Virus record (IMG/VR): IMGVR_UViG_3300006752_000166
Span: 1 to 27,514 of that record
Origin: a virus
Length of the DNA stretch: 27,514 nt
Strand: one strand, 5' to 3'
In this document: piece after piece, positions 11,603 to 26,155 of the stretch
How positions within the stretch are numbered: position 1 is the stretch's first letter
Layout: each line of letters opens with the position of its first letter
Made by a program: the position numbers and the translations under genes
Notes under the pieces: generated by a model
The model's input: only the letters and a program-made list of their open reading frames with translations
Database searches by the model: none
Told to the model about the DNA's origin: nothing

Positions 11603-12316
11603 ATGAAAATAAAACTATATAATGACAGTATTGGTTTTGTTGAGCTAGTTCAATCAATGGGCGAGGATATAACTGTAGTAAATTCTGCGAGGGTTTCTTT
11701 TGGAGTTCATAAAGAATCATTAGATGACAAAGATAAAAAGTTAATTAACTATTTGATTAAACATAGACATACTTCTACTCTAGAACACAATATTGCAACT
11801 TTTAGAATTAAAGTTCCTTTATTTATTAGAAGTCAACATCATCGTCACAGGACATGGTCTTACAACGAGATTAGCAGAAGATATACAGATGTAAACTTAG
11901 AATTTTACGAGTCAGATCTTCTTAGAACACAACACAAATCAAATAGACAATCTTCGAATCATGAGTACATAAATCCTAAATTGTCAATGAGTACAGACTT
12001 TGCATCTACACCTAGAATTATAAAAGCTACTGAAGCTATAAAAGAGCATCACAAATTATCTCTAGAAATATTTGATAAGCTTTTACAATCAGGAGTTTGT
12101 AGAGAACAAGCAAGAGGAATTTTGCCACAAAATTTATATACAGAATATTATGCTACAGCTAATTTAAATAATATTTTAAAGTTTATAGATTTAAGAACAC
12201 ACGAAGGTGCTCAATGGGAAATTCAAAAGCTTGCTGAAGGTATGTTAAGTATTATTGAATCTTTATGGCCAGAGACTATTAAATGCTATACTAATATTAA
12301 AAATAGTGTAAAATAA
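11603..12316 (+). CDS. thyX: Flavin-dependent thymidylate synthase (ThyX), canonical
   Basis: This enzyme converts dUMP to dTMP using methylene-tetrahydrofolate, FAD and NADPH. The ThyX signature RHRxxSxNExSxRY is complete at residues 81-94 (RHRTWSYNEISRRY). The second conserved block is also intact: REQARGILPQ, then the helix with DLRTHEGAQWEIQ that carries the substrate-binding Arg. Length is 237 residues. The ribosome site AAAAAGGATAAAA immediately before the ATG is identical to that of the epimerase gene at 16.87 kb. Together with dUTPase and ribonucleotide reductase it supplies dTTP for this AT-rich genome. A second, atypical ThyX is encoded at 15.0 kb. Confidence 0.95.
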   Translation: MKIKLYNDSIGFVELVQSMGEDITVVNSARVSFGVHKESLDDKDKKLINYLIKHRHTSTLEHNIATFRIKVPLFIRSQHHRHRTWSYNEISRRYTDVNLEFYESDLLRTQHKSNRQSSNHEYINPKLSMSTDFASTPRIIKATEAIKEHHKLSLEIFDKLLQSGVCREQARGILPQNLYTEYYATANLNNILKFIDLRTHEGAQWEIQKLAEGMLSIIESLWPETIKCYTNIKNSVK

Positions 12317-14999: not shown

Positions 15000-15968
15000 A
15001 TGCCAATTAATAATAATTTAACTCCTATTAATCTTCCTATGGATTTAAAATTTAATCAAGAAGTTCGTACTAATTTTATTAATAATTTAGAATCATTAAA
15101 AATTGATTTAATTGATGGTCCGACAAGAGAACAAGCACAAAAAATTGCATGGCATATGACAAAAGCAACATGGGCTGATCAACCAACATCAACTAACTTT
15201 GAAGGTGCTGATCCTAAAGAAGCATCTATTAACTTGCAAGATGTTTTAAACTTTCGTGCTTTACCTACTCCTATGGAATGTTTAGGCTTTACATTTAGAA
15301 TTAGTGGTATTGACACACAAACTGTAACACATCTAATCAGACATCGTGCTGGATCTTTTGCAGCACAATGTACAGGTGATCGTGATTTAAGATTTGATAA
15401 TGCTTTAGTTCCAGAATCTATTGAAAATTCATCATATTACGATAGATTTAAAAAAATTGTAAGTGATGCAAAAAAATTATATGCAGACATGTCTGATAGT
15501 AAATGTATTTCAATGATGGATGCACGAGTTATTCTTCCAAAGTGTATGGAAACATTCTATATTGCGCGTTTTAATCTTAAAGATCTTATTGGTTTTATTA
15601 AACAACGTCAAGACGTACAAATTCAACCTGAAGTTGACAATATAATTGCGACAAGAATTGCAAAAATTGTTTGTACGCAAATTCCTGAAGTTGCAACTTG
15701 TCTTAACTTTGAAAAGCCTGATATGCATTATGTTCGTACTTTTAGAGTAAAACTTTCTGACGGAACGTATACTTCTCGTGGAACAAACTTATATCAACCA
15801 GAACCTAAAAATGATTTATTTGAATATCATGAAAATGATTCTATATATCAATGTAGACGTGAAGAGTTAAATGGAGATATGCCTACAAATGAAGCTAAAA
15901 ACTTTACTGTTATGTGGCATGATGATATCTCTTCTATTGATGCAATTAAAAAAACATTAAACTTTTAA
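15000..15968 (+). CDS. Divergent ThyX-family flavoenzyme (signature residues changed)
   Basis: The 322-residue protein is clearly in the ThyX superfamily: THLIRHRAGS (RHR at 114-116, Ser119), then DARVILPKCMETFYIARFN and a helix with KQRQDVQIQPEVD that matches the conserved Arg and E-x-x helix of ThyX. The signature RHRxxSxNExSxRY is not kept: the Asn-Glu pair is Ala121-Ala122, followed by QCTGDRDLRF. It also has ~50 extra N-terminal residues and a long C-terminal extension with no counterpart in the canonical ThyX at 11.6 kb. It may therefore use another pyrimidine nucleotide or another one-carbon chemistry, or be a specialised dTMP synthase. GGAGG four bases before the ATG is the strongest Shine-Dalgarno in the window, and a dedicated promoter precedes it, so high expression is likely. 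Confidence 0.75.
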   Translation: MPINNNLTPINLPMDLKFNQEVRTNFINNLESLKIDLIDGPTREQAQKIAWHMTKATWADQPTSTNFEGADPKEASINLQDVLNFRALPTPMECLGFTFRISGIDTQTVTHLIRHRAGSFAAQCTGDRDLRFDNALVPESIENSSYYDRFKKIVSDAKKLYADMSDSKCISMMDARVILPKCMETFYIARFNLKDLIGFIKQRQDVQIQPEVDNIIATRIAKIVCTQIPEVATCLNFEKPDMHYVRTFRVKLSDGTYTSRGTNLYQPEPKNDLFEYHENDSIYQCRREELNGDMPTNEAKNFTVMWHDDISSIDAIKKTLNF

Positions 15969-17902: not shown

Positions 17903-18670
17903 ATGGGTAGGCCTAGTAATAAAGTTTCTAAAAAATGTTCTCATTGCAACGCAGACTATTTAGTTTCACCTTCAAAATTTGAAACTTCTAAGTTTTGTTC
18001 TAGAAAGTGTATGAGAGAATCAAAAAGTGTATCTAAAGAATATGACTGTTTAAATTGTGGAAAAAAATTTGTTTCTTATAAAAATAAGTCTTATTGCAGT
18101 AGATCATGTTATCTTACTAAAGTAACGAAAAAAAGAATTGATTTAAAGTGTGGTAATTGTGGAAAAGAATATGTAAAACCAGAAGGTCAATTGACAAAGT
18201 TTTGTAGTAAAAAATGTGCTTTAATAGCTCAAAGTTCTGGATTACAAGAAATACCTTCAAATGGAAGAAAAGGTTTTAGAAGAGATTTAAACCCGAAATA
18301 TTTTTTTAAATCTTCTTTAGAAGCAGACTACGCTAGATGGTGTGATTTCGTAGGAAAAGATTATATTTATGAACACAAAACTTTTAATGTTGACTTTGGC
18401 AATAAAACAAAAGTTTATACTCCAGACTTTTATCATCCTGACGAAGACAGATATGTTGAAACAAAAGCTATAAGAAGAGATAGAAAATTTAATTCAAATC
18501 TTCTTGCTGCTGATATTTTAAAAACACAAGGATTAAACATTGAAGTTTTGTTAATGGATGAATTTTATAGAAATATAAAACAAAGTGGTCATTATTGGTT
18601 AATAGACAATATTGAAAACAAAAACTATAACGGAACTAGACATTTAATCTACTTAAAAAAGAAAGTTTAA
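17903..18670 (+). CDS. Free-standing endonuclease: zinc fingers + PD-(D/E)XK (T7 endonuclease I-like) domain
   Basis: This is a probable homing-type or junction-type endonuclease. The first ~110 residues hold three Cys4 zinc knuckles of the form C-x2-C followed by F/YCSxxC (C12/C15/C32/C36; C49/C52/C65/C69; C83/C86/C101/C105). From ~130 a PD-(D/E)XK core follows: FKSSLEADYARW (Glu140), IYEHKTFNVDF, VYTPDFY (Asp175) and YVETKAI (Glu186, Lys188), the spacing of Phage_endo_I-like nucleases. Length is 255 residues. AAAGGAG precedes the ATG. Such genes often insert between conserved phage genes and cut the empty site of rivals. A role in debranching DNA is the alternative. Confidence 0.75.
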   Translation: MGRPSNKVSKKCSHCNADYLVSPSKFETSKFCSRKCMRESKSVSKEYDCLNCGKKFVSYKNKSYCSRSCYLTKVTKKRIDLKCGNCGKEYVKPEGQLTKFCSKKCALIAQSSGLQEIPSNGRKGFRRDLNPKYFFKSSLEADYARWCDFVGKDYIYEHKTFNVDFGNKTKVYTPDFYHPDEDRYVETKAIRRDRKFNSNLLAADILKTQGLNIEVLLMDEFYRNIKQSGHYWLIDNIENKNYNGTRHLIYLKKKV

Positions 18671-18856: not shown

Positions 18857-18999
18857 TAAAAAAATTCGTAGCAAGTCTTTATAACTTTAAATTTGAAACT
18901 ATAAACTTCTTATTAATTGATATAAGTAATAATACAGCTAATTTTTAATAGAACGAAAAAAATCATCTATTAATTTAAACATCAAGGATATTGTTTTAT

Positions 19000-20196
19000 A
19001 TGCAAAAAAGATATCATAATCAAAAAGGATTCATATCAGTAGTTATATTGTTTATGGCTGCAGTATTAGCTTTTATATCATATAATATAATAGATATAGG
19101 CACTACAAGCATTAAAGTAAACACTGAAAAGCAAACTTTAGATGCTTGTAGTGTTTTAGCAGGGCAAATCTTAATAAAGACAAATAATATACAAGAAGCA
19201 TGTAGTTCTCAAAACTTAAATCAATGCTCTGAGTTAACAGGTAATACTGATTCTAATATGTCTTGTATTGACTTAGGTCTAGAATGTAATAACTTAGACG
19301 AATGCAAAAGAAAAATGCTCATAACTTCAGAATATAATCCCGGAAATTTAGAAGTTGCTAAATCAGTTGAAATACATGTTAATGAAGAAACTCACGAAGT
19401 CAATCTTGTTGATGCTGCAGTAATAATGCTTTTAGACTTTAGCGGTTCTATGCAAGGAAATAGAATAAATCAATTAAAAGCCGCAGTAGCAGAGTTTATA
19501 AGTTCAAACTATAATTTAAATTACTCTGTTATTCTTTATAATAACAGCATTATATCATTATCAAATATTGATAAAGGATTAAACCACGATCAAAACGTGC
19601 TGTCTATAGTTGAAAGTAACAGTGCAAGAGGAGGTACAAATTTTTTATTGCCTTTACAAGAAGCTTTAAGACAAATAAATAACACAAATCATGAAGCATA
19701 CTACATAATGTTAATATCAGACGGTGCTCCAAATGAAGGACCTAATCCTTCTAGAAACTTTGTTACAAACAATATCATGAATATTGACAATAGTTTTTGT
19801 TTAGTATCAACTAGACAAAATCCTTGTATCACAATTTTTACTTTAGGCGTTGACAATGCTGACTTAGGAACATTAAGAATGTTAAGTGGTAATACAATTA
19901 GTCAAGACCCAGTTAATTATTCTTATACAGCTAGTTCAAACCAAACTTCTGATGCGTTTAATGCAATTATAGAAGAAATAATTTGTAGAGTAGGTCCTGT
20001 TAGATCTGAAGGTTTTCTTAAAGTTTTTAACGACTTAGAGATATTAGAAGAAAATATTGACTATATTTTTGATGTTCAAAATAAAATACTTAAGTTTTAT
20101 GATTCAGAGCCGTTTAATATATGTACAGAGATGATAAATAATAGAAGCAATATTACTTTAAGGTGGGGAAATCCAGAACTATATGTTATACATTAA
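19000..20196 (+). CDS. TadG-like membrane-anchored von Willebrand factor A protein
   Basis: Residues ~10-30 (GFISVVILFMAAVLAFI) form a hydrophobic segment followed by DIGTTSIKVNTEKQTLDACS, which resembles the N-terminus of TadE/TadG pilus-assembly proteins. The protein would sit in the inner membrane with the bulk in the periplasm. A von Willebrand A domain follows, with a complete MIDAS metal site: DFSGS (146-150), Thr213 in RGGTNF and Asp241 in LISDGAP. Ten cysteines, an even number clustered before and after the A domain, fit disulfides outside the cytoplasm. AAGGA at 18984 is 11 bases before ATG 19000; the upstream in-frame TTG at 18991 is only 2 bases away, so 19000 is chosen (398 residues). 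Such a protein is unexpected in a replication region and may have been acquired. It could act in superinfection exclusion, adhesion or virion decoration, which is not determined. Confidence 0.8.
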   Translation: MQKRYHNQKGFISVVILFMAAVLAFISYNIIDIGTTSIKVNTEKQTLDACSVLAGQILIKTNNIQEACSSQNLNQCSELTGNTDSNMSCIDLGLECNNLDECKRKMLITSEYNPGNLEVAKSVEIHVNEETHEVNLVDAAVIMLLDFSGSMQGNRINQLKAAVAEFISSNYNLNYSVILYNNSIISLSNIDKGLNHDQNVLSIVESNSARGGTNFLLPLQEALRQINNTNHEAYYIMLISDGAPNEGPNPSRNFVTNNIMNIDNSFCLVSTRQNPCITIFTLGVDNADLGTLRMLSGNTISQDPVNYSYTASSNQTSDAFNAIIEEIICRVGPVRSEGFLKVFNDLEILEENIDYIFDVQNKILKFYDSEPFNICTEMINNRSNITLRWGNPELYVIH

Positions 20197-21124: not shown

Positions 21125-24049
21125 TTGTCTATTGAATTAATAACACCACCAAATAGATTTGTATCTCTTCATTCACACTCAACTTTTAGTACTTTTGATG
21201 GTCTAGGTTATCCAGCAGATCACATAAACTTTGTTCTTTCTGAATCTCAAGGTATGGATGCATGGGCTTTAACAGATCATGGAAACGGCAACGGTCTTGC
21301 TCATGCACATTCACATGCTGTTAAAATGCAAAAGAAAGGTCAAAAGTTTAGGCAAATCTACGGTGTTGAATTCTATTTTGTACCTTCTCTAGAACAATGG
21401 TCAAAAGAATACTCAGATCATCGTCAAGCTGTTAAAGATGCAAAAACAGCAGCAGCTGCCGAAAAGAAATCAAAAGAAAAAGTCGATATCGATGCTGATG
21501 ATGAAAGTGGTGGTCTTGTTGTTGAAGACGAAGATGAAACAAAAAAAATAGATATTCTTAAAGATGAATGGAAACGACGCTATCACCTTGTAGTCACTGC
21601 GCGTAATAGAAAAGGTTTAAACAATTTATTTACTCTAGTTAAAAAGTCATATAAATACGGTTTCTATAGATATCCTCGTATTGATTTTAAAATGCTTAAA
21701 GAACATGGTGAAGGTCTACATGTATCAACAGCTTGTTTAGGAGGTATTTATAGTAATCGTATTCTTCGTGGTAATGCACATAATAAGTCACATGATGAAA
21801 TACAAAAAGATTTATTAAACCTAACAGACAGATTTACAGACGCTGTAGGTATTGAAAACTTTAAATTAGAATTACAATTTAATAAACTAGAAAAGCAACA
21901 TATTGTTAATAACTTTTTAATTGAACATCATAAGTTAACTGGTATTCCTTTGATTTCTACAGCTGATTCTCATTATCCTACTAATGATAAATGGCAAGCA
22001 CGCGAGTTATACAAGAAACTTGGTTGGTTAGGCAAAAAAGACGGTATGACTCTTCCTGAGTTTGAAGATTTAAAGTGTGAACTATATCCTAAGAATTCAC
22101 AACAAATGTGGGATGAGTTCTTAGAATCTTATCCTTTATATGACTTCTATAAAGGTAATGAACAGCTAGTTAAAGAATCAATTGAAAGAACACACGATAT
22201 TGTCTGGAATGATTTTGAAGATACTTGGATTGATACAAGCGCCAAATTACCAACAATATCAGTACCAGGAAAAACTCCATTTCAACATTTGGCAGAATTA
22301 GTAAAACATGCTTTAATAAAAGAAGGTTTACATAAAAGTAAAGAGTATGTTGATAGAGCAAAATATGAATTATCAGACATTAAGTATTTAGGTCACGCTG
22401 CTTATTTTATTACAATGTATGAAATATTTAAAAGAGCTGAAACTAAAACTTTATTTGGTGCAGGAAGAGGTAGTGGTGCAGGATCTTTAGTAAACTATCT
22501 TTTAGGTATTACTCAAATAGATCCAATACCTTATAATTTACTTTGGAGTAGATTTTTAGGTAGACATAGAACTTCTTGGCCTGATATTGACACAGATGCA
22601 GGTGACAGAGATGAATTAATAAAGGCAGCAAGAGAATTATACGGTGACGATGCTGTAATTCCAGTATCAAACTTTAATACACTTAAACTTAAGTCGCTTG
22701 TAAAAGATATTGCTAAGTTTTATGATATTCCTTTTGATGAAGTTAACAAAGTAACAGGACCATTGCAAGATCAAGTTATGTCTTTAGCTATGGATAAAAA
22801 TCAAGAAAAGTCTGTATTCGTTTTAAAACATGTAGATTGTATGAAATATTCTCCTGAGTACAATGAATTTATGACAAAATATCCAGAAGTTGCAAAACAT
22901 GTAGAAACTTTATTTATGCAAAATAGAGCTATTGGTCGACATGCTGGAGGTGTTATTATAGCTGACGCAGATAAGCTTGAACAATCAATGCCTATCGTTG
23001 GTGTGCGTGGTGAACTTCAAACTCCTTGGACAGAAGGTATGAACTTTCGTAATTTAGAAGATAATGGATTTCTTAAGTTTGACTTTCTAGGATTAACTCT
23101 TCTTAAAGATGTTGAAAATTGTATTTATCGCATTCTTAAAAAACAAGGAAACATTAACCCGACATTTACAGATGCAAGAGCATTTTTTGACAAGCATCTA
23201 AATTGTAGATTTCATAAACAAGAAGATATGGATGTTTGGAAACATGTTTATCACAATGGTAGATTTTGTGGAATATTTCAATTTACAAATCAAGGTGCAA
23301 GACAGTTTGCTTTAGACGCAAAACCAGATAATATCGAAGAACTTGCTGCACTTACTGCGATTTATAGACCTGGACCTTTAAAAGCAAATGTTCATAAAAA
23401 ATATGTTAAAGCTAAACATAATAAAGAATCTATAACTTATCCTCACCCTATCATTGAAAAGATATTAGGTCCTACATTTGGATTTATAACTTTTCAAGAA
23501 CAGTTTATGTTATTAGCACAAGAGCTTGCTGGCTTTGATCCTGGTGAAGCTGATAAACTTAGAAAAACTTTAGTTAAAAAATCTTTAGATACATTACATT
23601 CAAAAGGCTCTGAAAAAGCTATTGCTAGAGAAAAGTTTATTAAAGGATCTAAAGAGTTAAATGATATTCCTGAATCGATATCTTCTAAATTATGGGCAGA
23701 AATAGAATTCTTCAGTGTTTATGGTTTTAATAAAAGTTTACTATTTGATACACTAGTGGATACTTATGATCATAAAGGAAACTTTTTAGCAACAAAGGAG
23801 ATTCAAGATGTTATTCCAGGTGTTTATGTTAAGTCTAGAGATGAAGAAAGTAAAGAAGATATATTTACACAGGTTTTGTCAAACCACGATCATGGAGAAG
23901 TTCCGACATTTAAGATTACTCTTGAAGACGGGCAAAGTGTTGAATGTACAATGCATCATAAATTTAGAGTTGAAGACGGAAGGATGTTACCACTATGGTT
24001 CATAATACAAGAAGATCTTTCGATTGTGTGTGCGGAAAAAGTTATGTAA
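21125..24049 (+). CDS. dnaE: DNA polymerase III alpha (family C), N-terminal half fused to N-intein
   Basis: Replicative-type DNA polymerase. Residues 1-~290 are a PHP domain with all nine metal ligands expected of active PHP nucleases (H16, H18, D25, H52, E82, H154, C204, D281, H283). Residues ~95-150 form an extra charged, low-complexity insert. The palm has GAGRGSGAGSLVNYLLGIT, the catalytic pair Asp487/Asp489 in WPDIDTDAG, and the third Asp653 in LKFDFLGLT. RAIGRHAGGVII and YRPGPL are standard DnaE blocks. The extein ends at Lys870 of YGFNK; the next 104 residues are the N-part of a split intein, so this gene alone cannot give a complete polymerase. The start is TTG, supported by AGAAAGG about 8 bases upstream; no ATG fits. 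Protein splicing with the product of 25.03 kb would restore YGFNKSHA. Confidence 0.93.
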   Translation: MSIELITPPNRFVSLHSHSTFSTFDGLGYPADHINFVLSESQGMDAWALTDHGNGNGLAHAHSHAVKMQKKGQKFRQIYGVEFYFVPSLEQWSKEYSDHRQAVKDAKTAAAAEKKSKEKVDIDADDESGGLVVEDEDETKKIDILKDEWKRRYHLVVTARNRKGLNNLFTLVKKSYKYGFYRYPRIDFKMLKEHGEGLHVSTACLGGIYSNRILRGNAHNKSHDEIQKDLLNLTDRFTDAVGIENFKLELQFNKLEKQHIVNNFLIEHHKLTGIPLISTADSHYPTNDKWQARELYKKLGWLGKKDGMTLPEFEDLKCELYPKNSQQMWDEFLESYPLYDFYKGNEQLVKESIERTHDIVWNDFEDTWIDTSAKLPTISVPGKTPFQHLAELVKHALIKEGLHKSKEYVDRAKYELSDIKYLGHAAYFITMYEIFKRAETKTLFGAGRGSGAGSLVNYLLGITQIDPIPYNLLWSRFLGRHRTSWPDIDTDAGDRDELIKAARELYGDDAVIPVSNFNTLKLKSLVKDIAKFYDIPFDEVNKVTGPLQDQVMSLAMDKNQEKSVFVLKHVDCMKYSPEYNEFMTKYPEVAKHVETLFMQNRAIGRHAGGVIIADADKLEQSMPIVGVRGELQTPWTEGMNFRNLEDNGFLKFDFLGLTLLKDVENCIYRILKKQGNINPTFTDARAFFDKHLNCRFHKQEDMDVWKHVYHNGRFCGIFQFTNQGARQFALDAKPDNIEELAALTAIYRPGPLKANVHKKYVKAKHNKESITYPHPIIEKILGPTFGFITFQEQFMLLAQELAGFDPGEADKLRKTLVKKSLDTLHSKGSEKAIAREKFIKGSKELNDIPESISSKLWAEIEFFSVYGFNKSLLFDTLVDTYDHKGNFLATKEIQDVIPGVYVKSRDEESKEDIFTQVLSNHDHGEVPTFKITLEDGQSVECTMHHKFRVEDGRMLPLWFIIQEDLSIVCAEKVM
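23735..24046 (+). other. N-terminal half of a split intein in DnaE
   Basis: The 104-codon segment begins SLLFDTLV, the intein block A pattern (C/S-L-x-x-D-T) with Ser as the splicing nucleophile, and includes ITLEDGQSVE and CTMHHKFRV, the block B TxxH motif. It is preceded by extein residues YGFNK, and the host protein resumes at SHA in another gene. It ends at its own TAA and has no endonuclease domain in frame. This is class 1 chemistry with Ser1. Confidence 0.9.
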
Positions 24050-24984
24050 ATAAGTCTGGGTTACATAATCACCAGAAAAAATGTAAAGTTTATTTATCGC
24101 AAGCAATAGAGGGTGTAGATTACGTAAAATGTAAAATATGTGGTTTTACGGGAAAAAGCATAACAGCTCATGTTAAAAGAAATCACTCTCTGTCTAAAGC
24201 TGAGTATGAAAAGAAATACGGCCCTACTGTATGTGATAGTACAAAAAGTACGTATTCAGAAACTGCAAAAATAAATGGTGACTGGATTAATAGAGCAAAA
24301 GAAAGAGGAGAAGATCTTACAGAATATTTTAATAGCCTTGGGAGTAAAATATCTAAAGGTATTATGAAATCTGACTCTGCAAGAGAAGCAAGAAGACAAA
24401 CACTTTCTAGACTAAATGCAACGAAGGAGTTTAGAGAAAGATCTTCAGAGACAGCTAAGAAAACATCTAGTAGAAAAGATATACAAGATAAAAGATCAGA
24501 ACAACTGGCAAAGTGGCGTGAAAATAATCCAGAAGAGTTTTATGAAAAATGCACTTCAGTTATGCATAAGTCTTGGCAGTCTAAACCTGAAATGGATTTG
24601 TTCAATGTTGTAGATCAATTTTTTCCAGATACATTTAAGAAAAATCAAATTCTTAAAAGAACTGGTAAGTTTTTGTCTACTAAAACAAACATTAGACAAA
24701 TTGATATTATGTCCCTAGAAAATAAAATTGTAATAGAATTTGACGGAATACATCATTTTAAAGACGTATTTAAGAAAAAAGGTAATCTTAATGAAGTTAG
24801 CAAGAAAGATCAAGAATTAAACTGTGTATTAGTAGAAGAAGGATGGACTGTGATTAGGGTTTCTTGCGACGAATATGATTATAGAGAAAGAGGAAAGTTT
24901 AATCAAGAGACATTAGACAAGATATTTGATATCGTAACTAATAAAAAAAGAGGATTATGGCTGTTTGGAAAGTCATACGTGTAA
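23995..24984 (+). CDS. EDxHD-type homing endonuclease inside the split dnaE
   Basis: The 329-residue protein starts inside the N-intein frame (55-base overlap) with GGAAGGA 10 bases upstream. Two N-terminal zinc fingers are visible: C11-x-C13, H26 and C30; and C46/C49 with H59/H64 in KCKICGFTGKSITAHVKRNH, a ROS/MucR-like finger followed by LSKAEYEKKYG. A central basic helical stretch (~85-195), with SDSAREARRQTLSRLNAT, resembles NUMOD-type DNA-binding repeats. The C-terminus is a Vsr-like nuclease of the EDxHD family: RQIDIMS (Asp237), IVIEFDGIHHF (Glu248, Asp250, His253/254), KKDQELN (Asp272) and WTVIRVS. It probably cuts intein-less dnaE alleles, spreading the cassette by gene conversion. 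Its stop overlaps the promoter of the C-half. Confidence 0.85.
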   Translation: MVHNTRRSFDCVCGKSYVNKSGLHNHQKKCKVYLSQAIEGVDYVKCKICGFTGKSITAHVKRNHSLSKAEYEKKYGPTVCDSTKSTYSETAKINGDWINRAKERGEDLTEYFNSLGSKISKGIMKSDSAREARRQTLSRLNATKEFRERSSETAKKTSSRKDIQDKRSEQLAKWRENNPEEFYEKCTSVMHKSWQSKPEMDLFNVVDQFFPDTFKKNQILKRTGKFLSTKTNIRQIDIMSLENKIVIEFDGIHHFKDVFKKKGNLNEVSKKDQELNCVLVEEGWTVIRVSCDEYDYRERGKFNQETLDKIFDIVTNKKRGLWLFGKSYV

Positions 24985-25007
24985 AATTTTAAAAAATAAT
25001 TTATAAT
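24978..25007 (+). promoter_or_regulatory. Promoter of the (C)GTGTAAA class, before the C-half of dnaE
   Basis: CGTGTAAA at 24978-24985 overlaps the stop codon of the endonuclease, and TATAAT at 25002-25007 is 16 bases further on. Only the first base differs from the TGTGTAAA form. It would transcribe the C-half of dnaE independently of the endonuclease gene. Confidence 0.6.
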
Positions 25008-25030
25008 ATAATAAAAAAGAAAGGGTTAAG

Positions 25031-25141
25031 ATGCCAAGAATTTCATCAATTGAGTTTACAGGAAAACAGCAAACATATGACTTAGAAGTTGCACATCATG
25101 ATCACCAGTATTATTTAAGTAATGGTATTTTACAGTCTAAC
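25031..25141 (+). other. C-terminal half of a split intein in DnaE
   Basis: The 37 codons begin at the gene start and contain the intein F block (TYDLEVAHHDHQYYLSNG) and the G block ILQSN followed by extein SHA. The terminal Asn37 and the +1 Ser are the residues required for splicing. The penultimate residue is Ser rather than the usual His, an accepted but less common variant. Confidence 0.88.
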
Positions 25142-26107
25142 TCCCATGCAATTTCTTATGCTATTGGATCTTATTACGCAGCTTGGTTGCATACTCATCA
25201 TGAAACTGAATGGTTAGCAGCTATATTACAATCTGAAAATGGAAATCCTAAAGGAATGTCAAAAGCTATATCTGAAATAAAATCATTTGGATATGAAATT
25301 GCTGCTGTTGATGTTAATTATTCTGGAAAAGAATGGGAATATTCAGAAGAATTACAAGCTTTTGTTCCTCCATTAACTTCTTTAAAAGGTGTAGGAGATA
25401 AAGCTGTTGAAGAAGTTTTTGCTAATAGACCTTATAAAAACTTGAATAGTTTATTCTTTAATGAAGAAGGTAGTTGGAAACATTCAAAATTAAATAAAAC
25501 AGCTTTCGTTTCATTATGTAAAATGGAGGCCTTTAAATCATTGGATGAAATGCAAAGTAAAAAACTGCTTAATCACAAGCAGCTCCATGATTTAATTGTT
25601 GACAATTATAGTACATTAAAAAAAGGTGTTTGGGGAATTACAAAGACTGCTTATAAAAGAGCAATGAAAAAAGAAGAGATTGTATTACCTATTGTTGATG
25701 TTTTAATTAATGAATATTGTGATAAAGAAGATTGGTCTAGATCTGTTAAAATTGGAAATTATTTTGACTTATCAAATGATGCTTCTGAAGATTTATTGTT
25801 TCCTCCTGAGTTAATGGAAAAAATCAAAGAAAAAGAAATTGACTCTATATTTGAAATAGAAAGTGGTGAAAGAGGAATAGGATACTTTACAGTTACTGAA
25901 GTTATTAGGAAAACTACAAAAAATGGAAAGCCATTTATGAGATGGAAGTGTATTGATTGTGACAATAGAAGTGGATGGTTAAGAGTTTGGGGTAATTTAG
26001 ATCAAGAAATAAAGTATACTACTTGGTTATCAGATGTTAAAAACGACGGTGGATGGGGAATGTCAACGACTTCTGCAAAAGTAAAATTAATTAATGCTTT
26101 TGATTGA
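25031..26107 (+). CDS. dnaE: DNA polymerase III alpha (family C), C-intein plus C-terminal half
   Basis: After the 37-residue C-intein the polymerase resumes with SHAISYAIGSYYAAWLHTHH, the standard continuation of the bacterial DnaE fingers. Further on are a helix-hairpin-helix (LTSLKGVGDKAVEEV) and an OB-fold-like part (GYFTVTEVIRK, KPFMRWKCID, WLRVWGNL). DLLF about 25 residues before the OB-like part could be a sliding-clamp contact, which is only a guess. The C-extein is 321 residues, so the spliced polymerase would be about 1191 residues, normal for DnaE. GAAAGGG precedes the ATG, and a private promoter lies upstream. It ends with TGA. Neither a tau-binding domain nor an epsilon-like exonuclease gene is seen. 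Confidence 0.9.
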   Translation: MPRISSIEFTGKQQTYDLEVAHHDHQYYLSNGILQSNSHAISYAIGSYYAAWLHTHHETEWLAAILQSENGNPKGMSKAISEIKSFGYEIAAVDVNYSGKEWEYSEELQAFVPPLTSLKGVGDKAVEEVFANRPYKNLNSLFFNEEGSWKHSKLNKTAFVSLCKMEAFKSLDEMQSKKLLNHKQLHDLIVDNYSTLKKGVWGITKTAYKRAMKKEEIVLPIVDVLINEYCDKEDWSRSVKIGNYFDLSNDASEDLLFPPELMEKIKEKEIDSIFEIESGERGIGYFTVTEVIRKTTKNGKPFMRWKCIDCDNRSGWLRVWGNLDQEIKYTTWLSDVKNDGGWGMSTTSAKVKLINAFD

Positions 26108-26126: not shown

Positions 26127-26155
26127 TATGTAAAATATAAATTTTAATTTATAAT
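26127..26155 (+). promoter_or_regulatory. Promoter of the (TA)TGTAAA class, before the kinase fusion
   Basis: TATGTAAA at 26127-26134 and TATAAT at 26150-26155 are 15 bases apart, one shorter than the other five sites. The predicted start near 26162 leaves a ~27-base leader with AAGGA before the ATG at 26189. It would drive the kinase fusion and the thymidine kinase. Confidence 0.5.

Follow-up and report, generated by a model that had tools for sequence, protein, structure and literature searches.

How does a phage obtain a complete DnaE polymerase when its dnaE gene is broken inside a conserved motif? The question is raised by the IMG/VR virus record IMGVR_UViG_3300006752_000166, whose whole stretch of 27,514 nucleotides was analysed here ("the window"), and in which dnaE, on the plus strand, is interrupted at YGFNK-SHA (here and below the hyphen marks the insertion point). 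We consider it very probable that this dnaE is a fractured gene, the halves of which are trans-spliced by a split intein to a YGFNKSHA polymerase, and that the cassette of intein halves and intervening nuclease gene was spread by this nuclease as a homing enzyme. An earlier note on the window, made from the sequence alone, had proposed a fractured dnaE at 23735-25141, and its coordinates proved exact to the base: the N-part, the stop codon, the out-of-frame nuclease and the new start codon are all there.

The N-part is read from a TTG codon at 21125 (a start also found in L005, one of the other loci compared) to 24049, and its tail shares 55 nucleotides with the nuclease open reading frame (ORF), which lies in a different frame. 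The C-part gene (25031-26107) encodes the C-intein followed by the C-extein. As had been claimed, the N-intein opens with SLLFDT and carries a TxxH block, a 37-residue C-part ends in Asn before SHA, and the joined exteins restore YGFNKSHA.

The same break recurs elsewhere. A split intein at YGFN[K/R/Q/E]-SH (site 2) was identified in 19 loci including the window, i.e., in 18 others (L003, L004, L005, L008, L055, L057, L058, L060, L095-L101, L129, L130 and L131; L004 and L057 probably represent one virus). Both halves lie on one contig in 16 of these 18, the contigs of L057 and L130 ending before the C-part. Because the break is found in 18 further loci from other assemblies, the interruption is neither chance nor assembly error. 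L002, L007 and L090 represent a second contig, with matched proteins 100% identical to those of the window. Intein-less alleles, which the earlier note had suggested looking for, were found in 66 other loci with an uninterrupted YGFNKSH (YGFNKSHA in L006, YGFNKSH[A/S] in 65). The locus therefore has what characterises a fractured gene: a conserved gene for an enzyme, interrupted by a split intein with a free-standing nuclease gene between the intein halves, and an uninterrupted allele in relatives. The cassette resides in very different dnaE types (L097-L101 versus the rest), and some contigs carrying it, probably phages, lie in bacterial or archaeal genome bins. No cassette was found among 50,697 records of isolated phages, and no contiguous intein was found at site 2.

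Do the two parts belong to one intein? Joined, they match the Npu DnaE intein co-linearly across the split point (residues 40-141, E 1.8e-16) and gp41-1 with E 1.9e-6, which, for parts encoded in two genes, identifies a naturally split intein and supports the reading of the earlier note. Among PDB sequences, the N-part alone matches the Npu DnaE N-intein with E 6e-9 and gp41-1 with E 0.011; for its AlphaFold model (predicted local distance difference test, pLDDT, 87), the top Foldseek matches are Npu DnaE N-inteins. The C-part passes the NCBIfam intein_Cterm profile (16.2 bits versus a cut-off of 15.6). Class 1 inteins have Cys, Ser or Thr at position 1, a C-terminal Asn and Cys, Ser or Thr at +1, with the residue roles described in PMC4031507; the window has Ser1, Asn37 of the C-part and Ser+1. 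Block B (Thr-x-x-His) is present as TMHH, block F is recognised by Asp17 and His25 of the C-part, which align to the Npu Asp and His, and family members share the catalytic residues. The common, non-essential penultimate His is absent, Ser36 standing in its place. This Ser had been thought unusual, but Ser or Ala is normal there in cyanobacterial DnaE inteins (PMC5874633), and every site-2 C-intein seen ends in SN. Ser1, likewise singled out, is indeed uncommon, but not new, as Ser1/Ser+1 are known in split phage PolB inteins (PMC12707363). Since two non-junction cysteines are kept, with Cys71 in nearly all members, the intein is not cysteine-less.

Table. Features of the fractured dnaE locus in the window
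Feature	Coordinates	Strand	Remarks
dnaE N-extein	21125..23734	+	Pfam PHP, DNA_pol3_alpha, DNA_pol3_finger; C-terminal end SVYGFNK
N-intein, 104 amino acids	23735..24046	+	Ser1, TxxH; SLLFDT...TMHHKF...CAEKVM; stop codon 24047-24049
Nuclease gene, 329 amino acids	23995..24984	+	C2H2 and Ros/MucR-like fingers, Vsr/EDxHD-like domain
TTTATAATATAA, possible phage promoter element	25000..25011; second copy at 26148	+	12-mer repeat
C-intein, 37 amino acids	25031..25141	+	Own start codon; MPRISS...LQSN, final Ser-Asn
dnaE C-extein	25142..26107	+	Begins SHAISYA (Ser+1); DnaE profiles and HHH_6

Position 1 varies among the site-2 inteins: Ser is found in 13 loci (L004 and L057 counted once) and Cys in L097 and L131, while the intein starts with Ser-Cys in L005 (4720) and L058 (4460) and with Thr-Cys in L060 (6240). 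If Cys2 were the first nucleophile in the latter three, one extra residue would stay within FNKSHA. The C-parts of L098 (4932-5288) and L100 (4960-5244) carry about 82 and 58 extra non-intein residues, respectively, before the C-intein.

The nuclease between the halves was assigned by fold and residue pattern. At the N-terminus it shows similarity to C2H2 and Ros/MucR fingers. A PDB sequence search with its C-terminal domain did not link it to Vsr; the best PDB matches of the model in Foldseek were 1vsr (E 1.8e-3) and 1cw0 (E 5e-3), both with probability 1.00. The residues E199, D237, H254 and D272 do not vary among 14 homologues, a pattern that fits the EDxHD name, in agreement with the endonuclease type proposed in the earlier note; the kinship of EDxHD and Vsr nucleases has also been described in PMC12350094. 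The nuclease has no match among annotated phages, and it is present in one copy per record, at the fractured dnaE. The window-type nuclease is present in 16 of the 19 site-2 loci (in L057 only its start is visible) and has been lost or replaced in three: L055 has an opposite-strand ORF, L129 an ORF of 114 amino acids and L130 (2560-3942) an unrelated repeat-containing nuclease-like ORF. The split therefore outlasts the loss of the nuclease, and nucleases are swappable. By eye, the L130 ORF, which contains short repeats with Cys and ends in an EDxHD-like part, looks similar to nucleases of phage group II introns that carry CapR repeats (PMC12350094).

Purifying selection acts on both intein halves and on the nuclease. 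In comparisons of the window with L003, L004 and L008, the ratio of non-synonymous to synonymous substitution rates (dN/dS) was 0.06-0.14 in the N-intein, 0.11-0.19 in the nuclease and 0.01-0.03 in the C-intein, the full C-intein range being 0.01-0.09. The cassette has a history of its own: grouping of the window with L004 is rejected by the extein tree (approximately unbiased test, p-AU 3e-11) and supported at 100/100 by the cassette tree, and the synonymous distance between the two is 0.39-0.56 for N-intein and nuclease versus 1.6-2.0 for the exteins, i.e., a quarter to a third. The cassette has therefore moved horizontally between phages, presumably driven by the nuclease.

Taken together, we propose that two proteins are made, DnaE-N with the N-intein and the C-intein with DnaE-C, and that the intein halves would associate and fold as a single HINT domain. 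Class 1 trans-splicing, by an acyl shift at Ser1, transfer to Ser+1 and cyclisation of Asn37, would then release a seamless YGFNKSHA polymerase. The zinc-finger Vsr/EDxHD-type nuclease probably cuts intein-free dnaE at YGFNKSHA, and repair of the cut would copy the whole cassette, split intein and nuclease, into the empty allele. Several points weigh against this reading. The match of the N-part to NCBIfam intein_Nterm lies under the curated cut-off, as does the match to Pfam Intein_splicing, and taken by itself the N-half gives a fold match with a low template modelling (TM) score of 0.42. Splicing, DNA cleavage and homing are deduced from the conservation of the parts, from selection and from how the cassette is distributed; the specificity of the nuclease for the empty site is presumed, and ordinary recombination could account for the horizontal transfer.

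It is this last point that gives some room to a scheme in which the intein splices, yet the nuclease is not the homing enzyme for the site and the cassette owes its spread to ordinary recombination among phages; the persistence of the intein in L055, L129 and L130, where the window-type nuclease is missing, and the presumptive nature of cleavage by this nuclease speak for it. We hold it to be rather unlikely, as the nuclease is conserved at the dN/dS given above and occurs once per record, at the same site in different dnaE types. That the intein halves are mere relics, DnaE-N and DnaE-C working unspliced as a non-covalent two-subunit polymerase, seems very improbable: split polymerase genes occur in some organisms, and splicing is deduced here, but both halves are under strong purifying selection, their catalytic residues are retained throughout the family, and unspliced tails would lie within the invariant FNKSHA motif. 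A single contiguous intein, seemingly broken by sequencing or assembly errors, would have its nested nuclease at the usual point of the fold; the chance of this is negligible, given that numerous independent contigs show this stop, the overlap in another frame and the fresh start codon and that an opposite-strand ORF separates the halves in L055. An assembly error or frameshifted contiguous intein was accordingly rejected, the architecture being replicated across these contigs.

The fractured-gene reading of site 2 is accompanied by further breaks in dnaE. Inteins at GRHR-TSWPDID (site 1) are split in L003, L004, L045, L047 and L057 and contiguous in L052; those at VSTA-CLGG are split in L018, L029, L055 and L064 and contiguous in L061, and those at GRG-S are split in L096 and contiguous in L061. 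Four lineages (L003, L004/L057, L055 and L096) have two split inteins and dnaE in three genes; such a doubly broken gene needs two trans-splicing reactions. In L003 (2197-3552) and L004 (759-2114) the second split intein, at site 1, comes with a different nuclease gene, and in L055 (2916-8284) neither split intein has a nuclease, an ORF of 97 amino acids and an opposite-strand ORF of 384 amino acids lying between halves. In the literature, which we covered in part, no report of one gene with two natural split inteins was found. The +1 residue of site 1 is Thr in all occupied alleles and Val in about half of the empty ones. The L003 site-1 nuclease is 40% identical to the product of a stand-alone gene of the window (17903-18670), which is a separate gene in relatives too, and this identity suggests that resident nucleases were recruited into inteins. 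As separate observations, this stand-alone nuclease gene, probably related to the site-1 cassette nuclease, is kept in relatives at 61-72%, and 3.3 kb with several ORFs, among them an opposite-strand nuclease-like gene of 524 amino acids, separates the site-1 halves in L047 (1583-4887).

Elsewhere in the window, the repeat TTTATAATATAA has two perfect copies versus 0.16 expected by chance, ahead of the dnaE C-part gene and of the next gene; one might guess at a phage promoter element. A sigma-70 promoter scan performed no better on the real sequence than on shuffles. By eye, we also noted a TadG-like protein with a von Willebrand-type DFSGSMQ motif (18991-20196), here in a phage, and two ThyX-like thymidylate synthase genes (11603-12316 and 15000-15968) on this one phage fragment.

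Where does the site-2 intein come from? Its profile scores 80 bits against Npu DnaE, 50 against Ssp DnaE and 48 against gp41-1 (reference intein sequences other than IMPDH-1 were verified against the PDB). The comparison with gp41-1, NrdJ-1 and IMPDH-1 recommended in the earlier note placed Npu DnaE nearer than all three, so that the cyanobacterial split DnaE intein appears, by sequence, to be the nearest relative among the inteins compared. Gp41-1 was rejected as nearest relative, the Npu DnaE E-value being about ten orders of magnitude better, and inteins at other sites of the same phage dnaE genes were rejected as a source, scoring 11-34 bits against the site-2 profile. In a small tree the site-2 and cyanobacterial DnaE inteins group at 99/94, with only ten other inteins and long branches; given this thin sampling and the long branches, a common origin is offered as a proposal. 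Tentatively, a single ancestral split intein, mobile in dnaE together with a Vsr-type nuclease, might have given rise to both; the cyanobacterial form would then be the fossil of a fractured gene whose nuclease has been lost, and the same phage group would have undergone recurrent breaks at several dnaE sites, with three-piece polymerases assembled by two orthogonal trans-splicings.

The family comprises at least 17 complete natural split inteins, mostly with Ser1, that are kin to Npu DnaE, the intein most used as a tool, and for most members the presumed mobilising nuclease is still present. Nuclease-bearing, nuclease-free and nuclease-swapped versions occur side by side, so that ideas on where the cyanobacterial split DnaE intein came from can be put to the test. 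The two split inteins of a doubly broken dnaE form a natural, presumably orthogonal pair for assembling proteins from three segments.

With the cyanobacterial split DnaE intein (Npu, Ssp) the window intein shares the gene, the split point, the best sequence and structure match and, for Npu, the Ser-Asn end of the C-intein. The cyanobacterial intein has no nuclease, its halves lie at distant loci, and it uses Cys1/Cys+1 instead of Ser1/Ser+1. Its C-extein begins with CFNK (PMC2664965), so the insertion at FNK-SH lies four residues downstream, at a different insertion point. Ser1 and Ser+1 in a naturally split intein are shared with the PolB inteins Aes123, CP21, LCGC14 and GOM-OPS-1 from phages and metagenomes (PMC12707363, PMC11923092), from which the window intein differs in its gene and its two non-junction cysteines. 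The nuclease resembles the Vsr mismatch endonuclease and EDxHD homing endonucleases in predicted fold and E, D, H, D pattern, but has, in addition, a long helical linker and, at its N-terminus, C2H2 and Ros/MucR-like fingers. In 2009, Dassa et al. reportedly described fractured genes including gp41, NrdA, NrdJ and IMPDH, said to cover eight enzyme types, perhaps including DnaE. The window architecture belongs to this already known kind: the layout, split intein halves around a free-standing Vsr-type nuclease gene in environmental phage DNA, is the same, and the gp41-1 C-intein likewise has 37 amino acids. It is set apart from gp41, NrdA, NrdJ and IMPDH by its host gene, dnaE broken at FNK-SH, by an intein nearer to cyanobacterial DnaE (80 versus 48 bits) and by a first residue that is mostly Ser.

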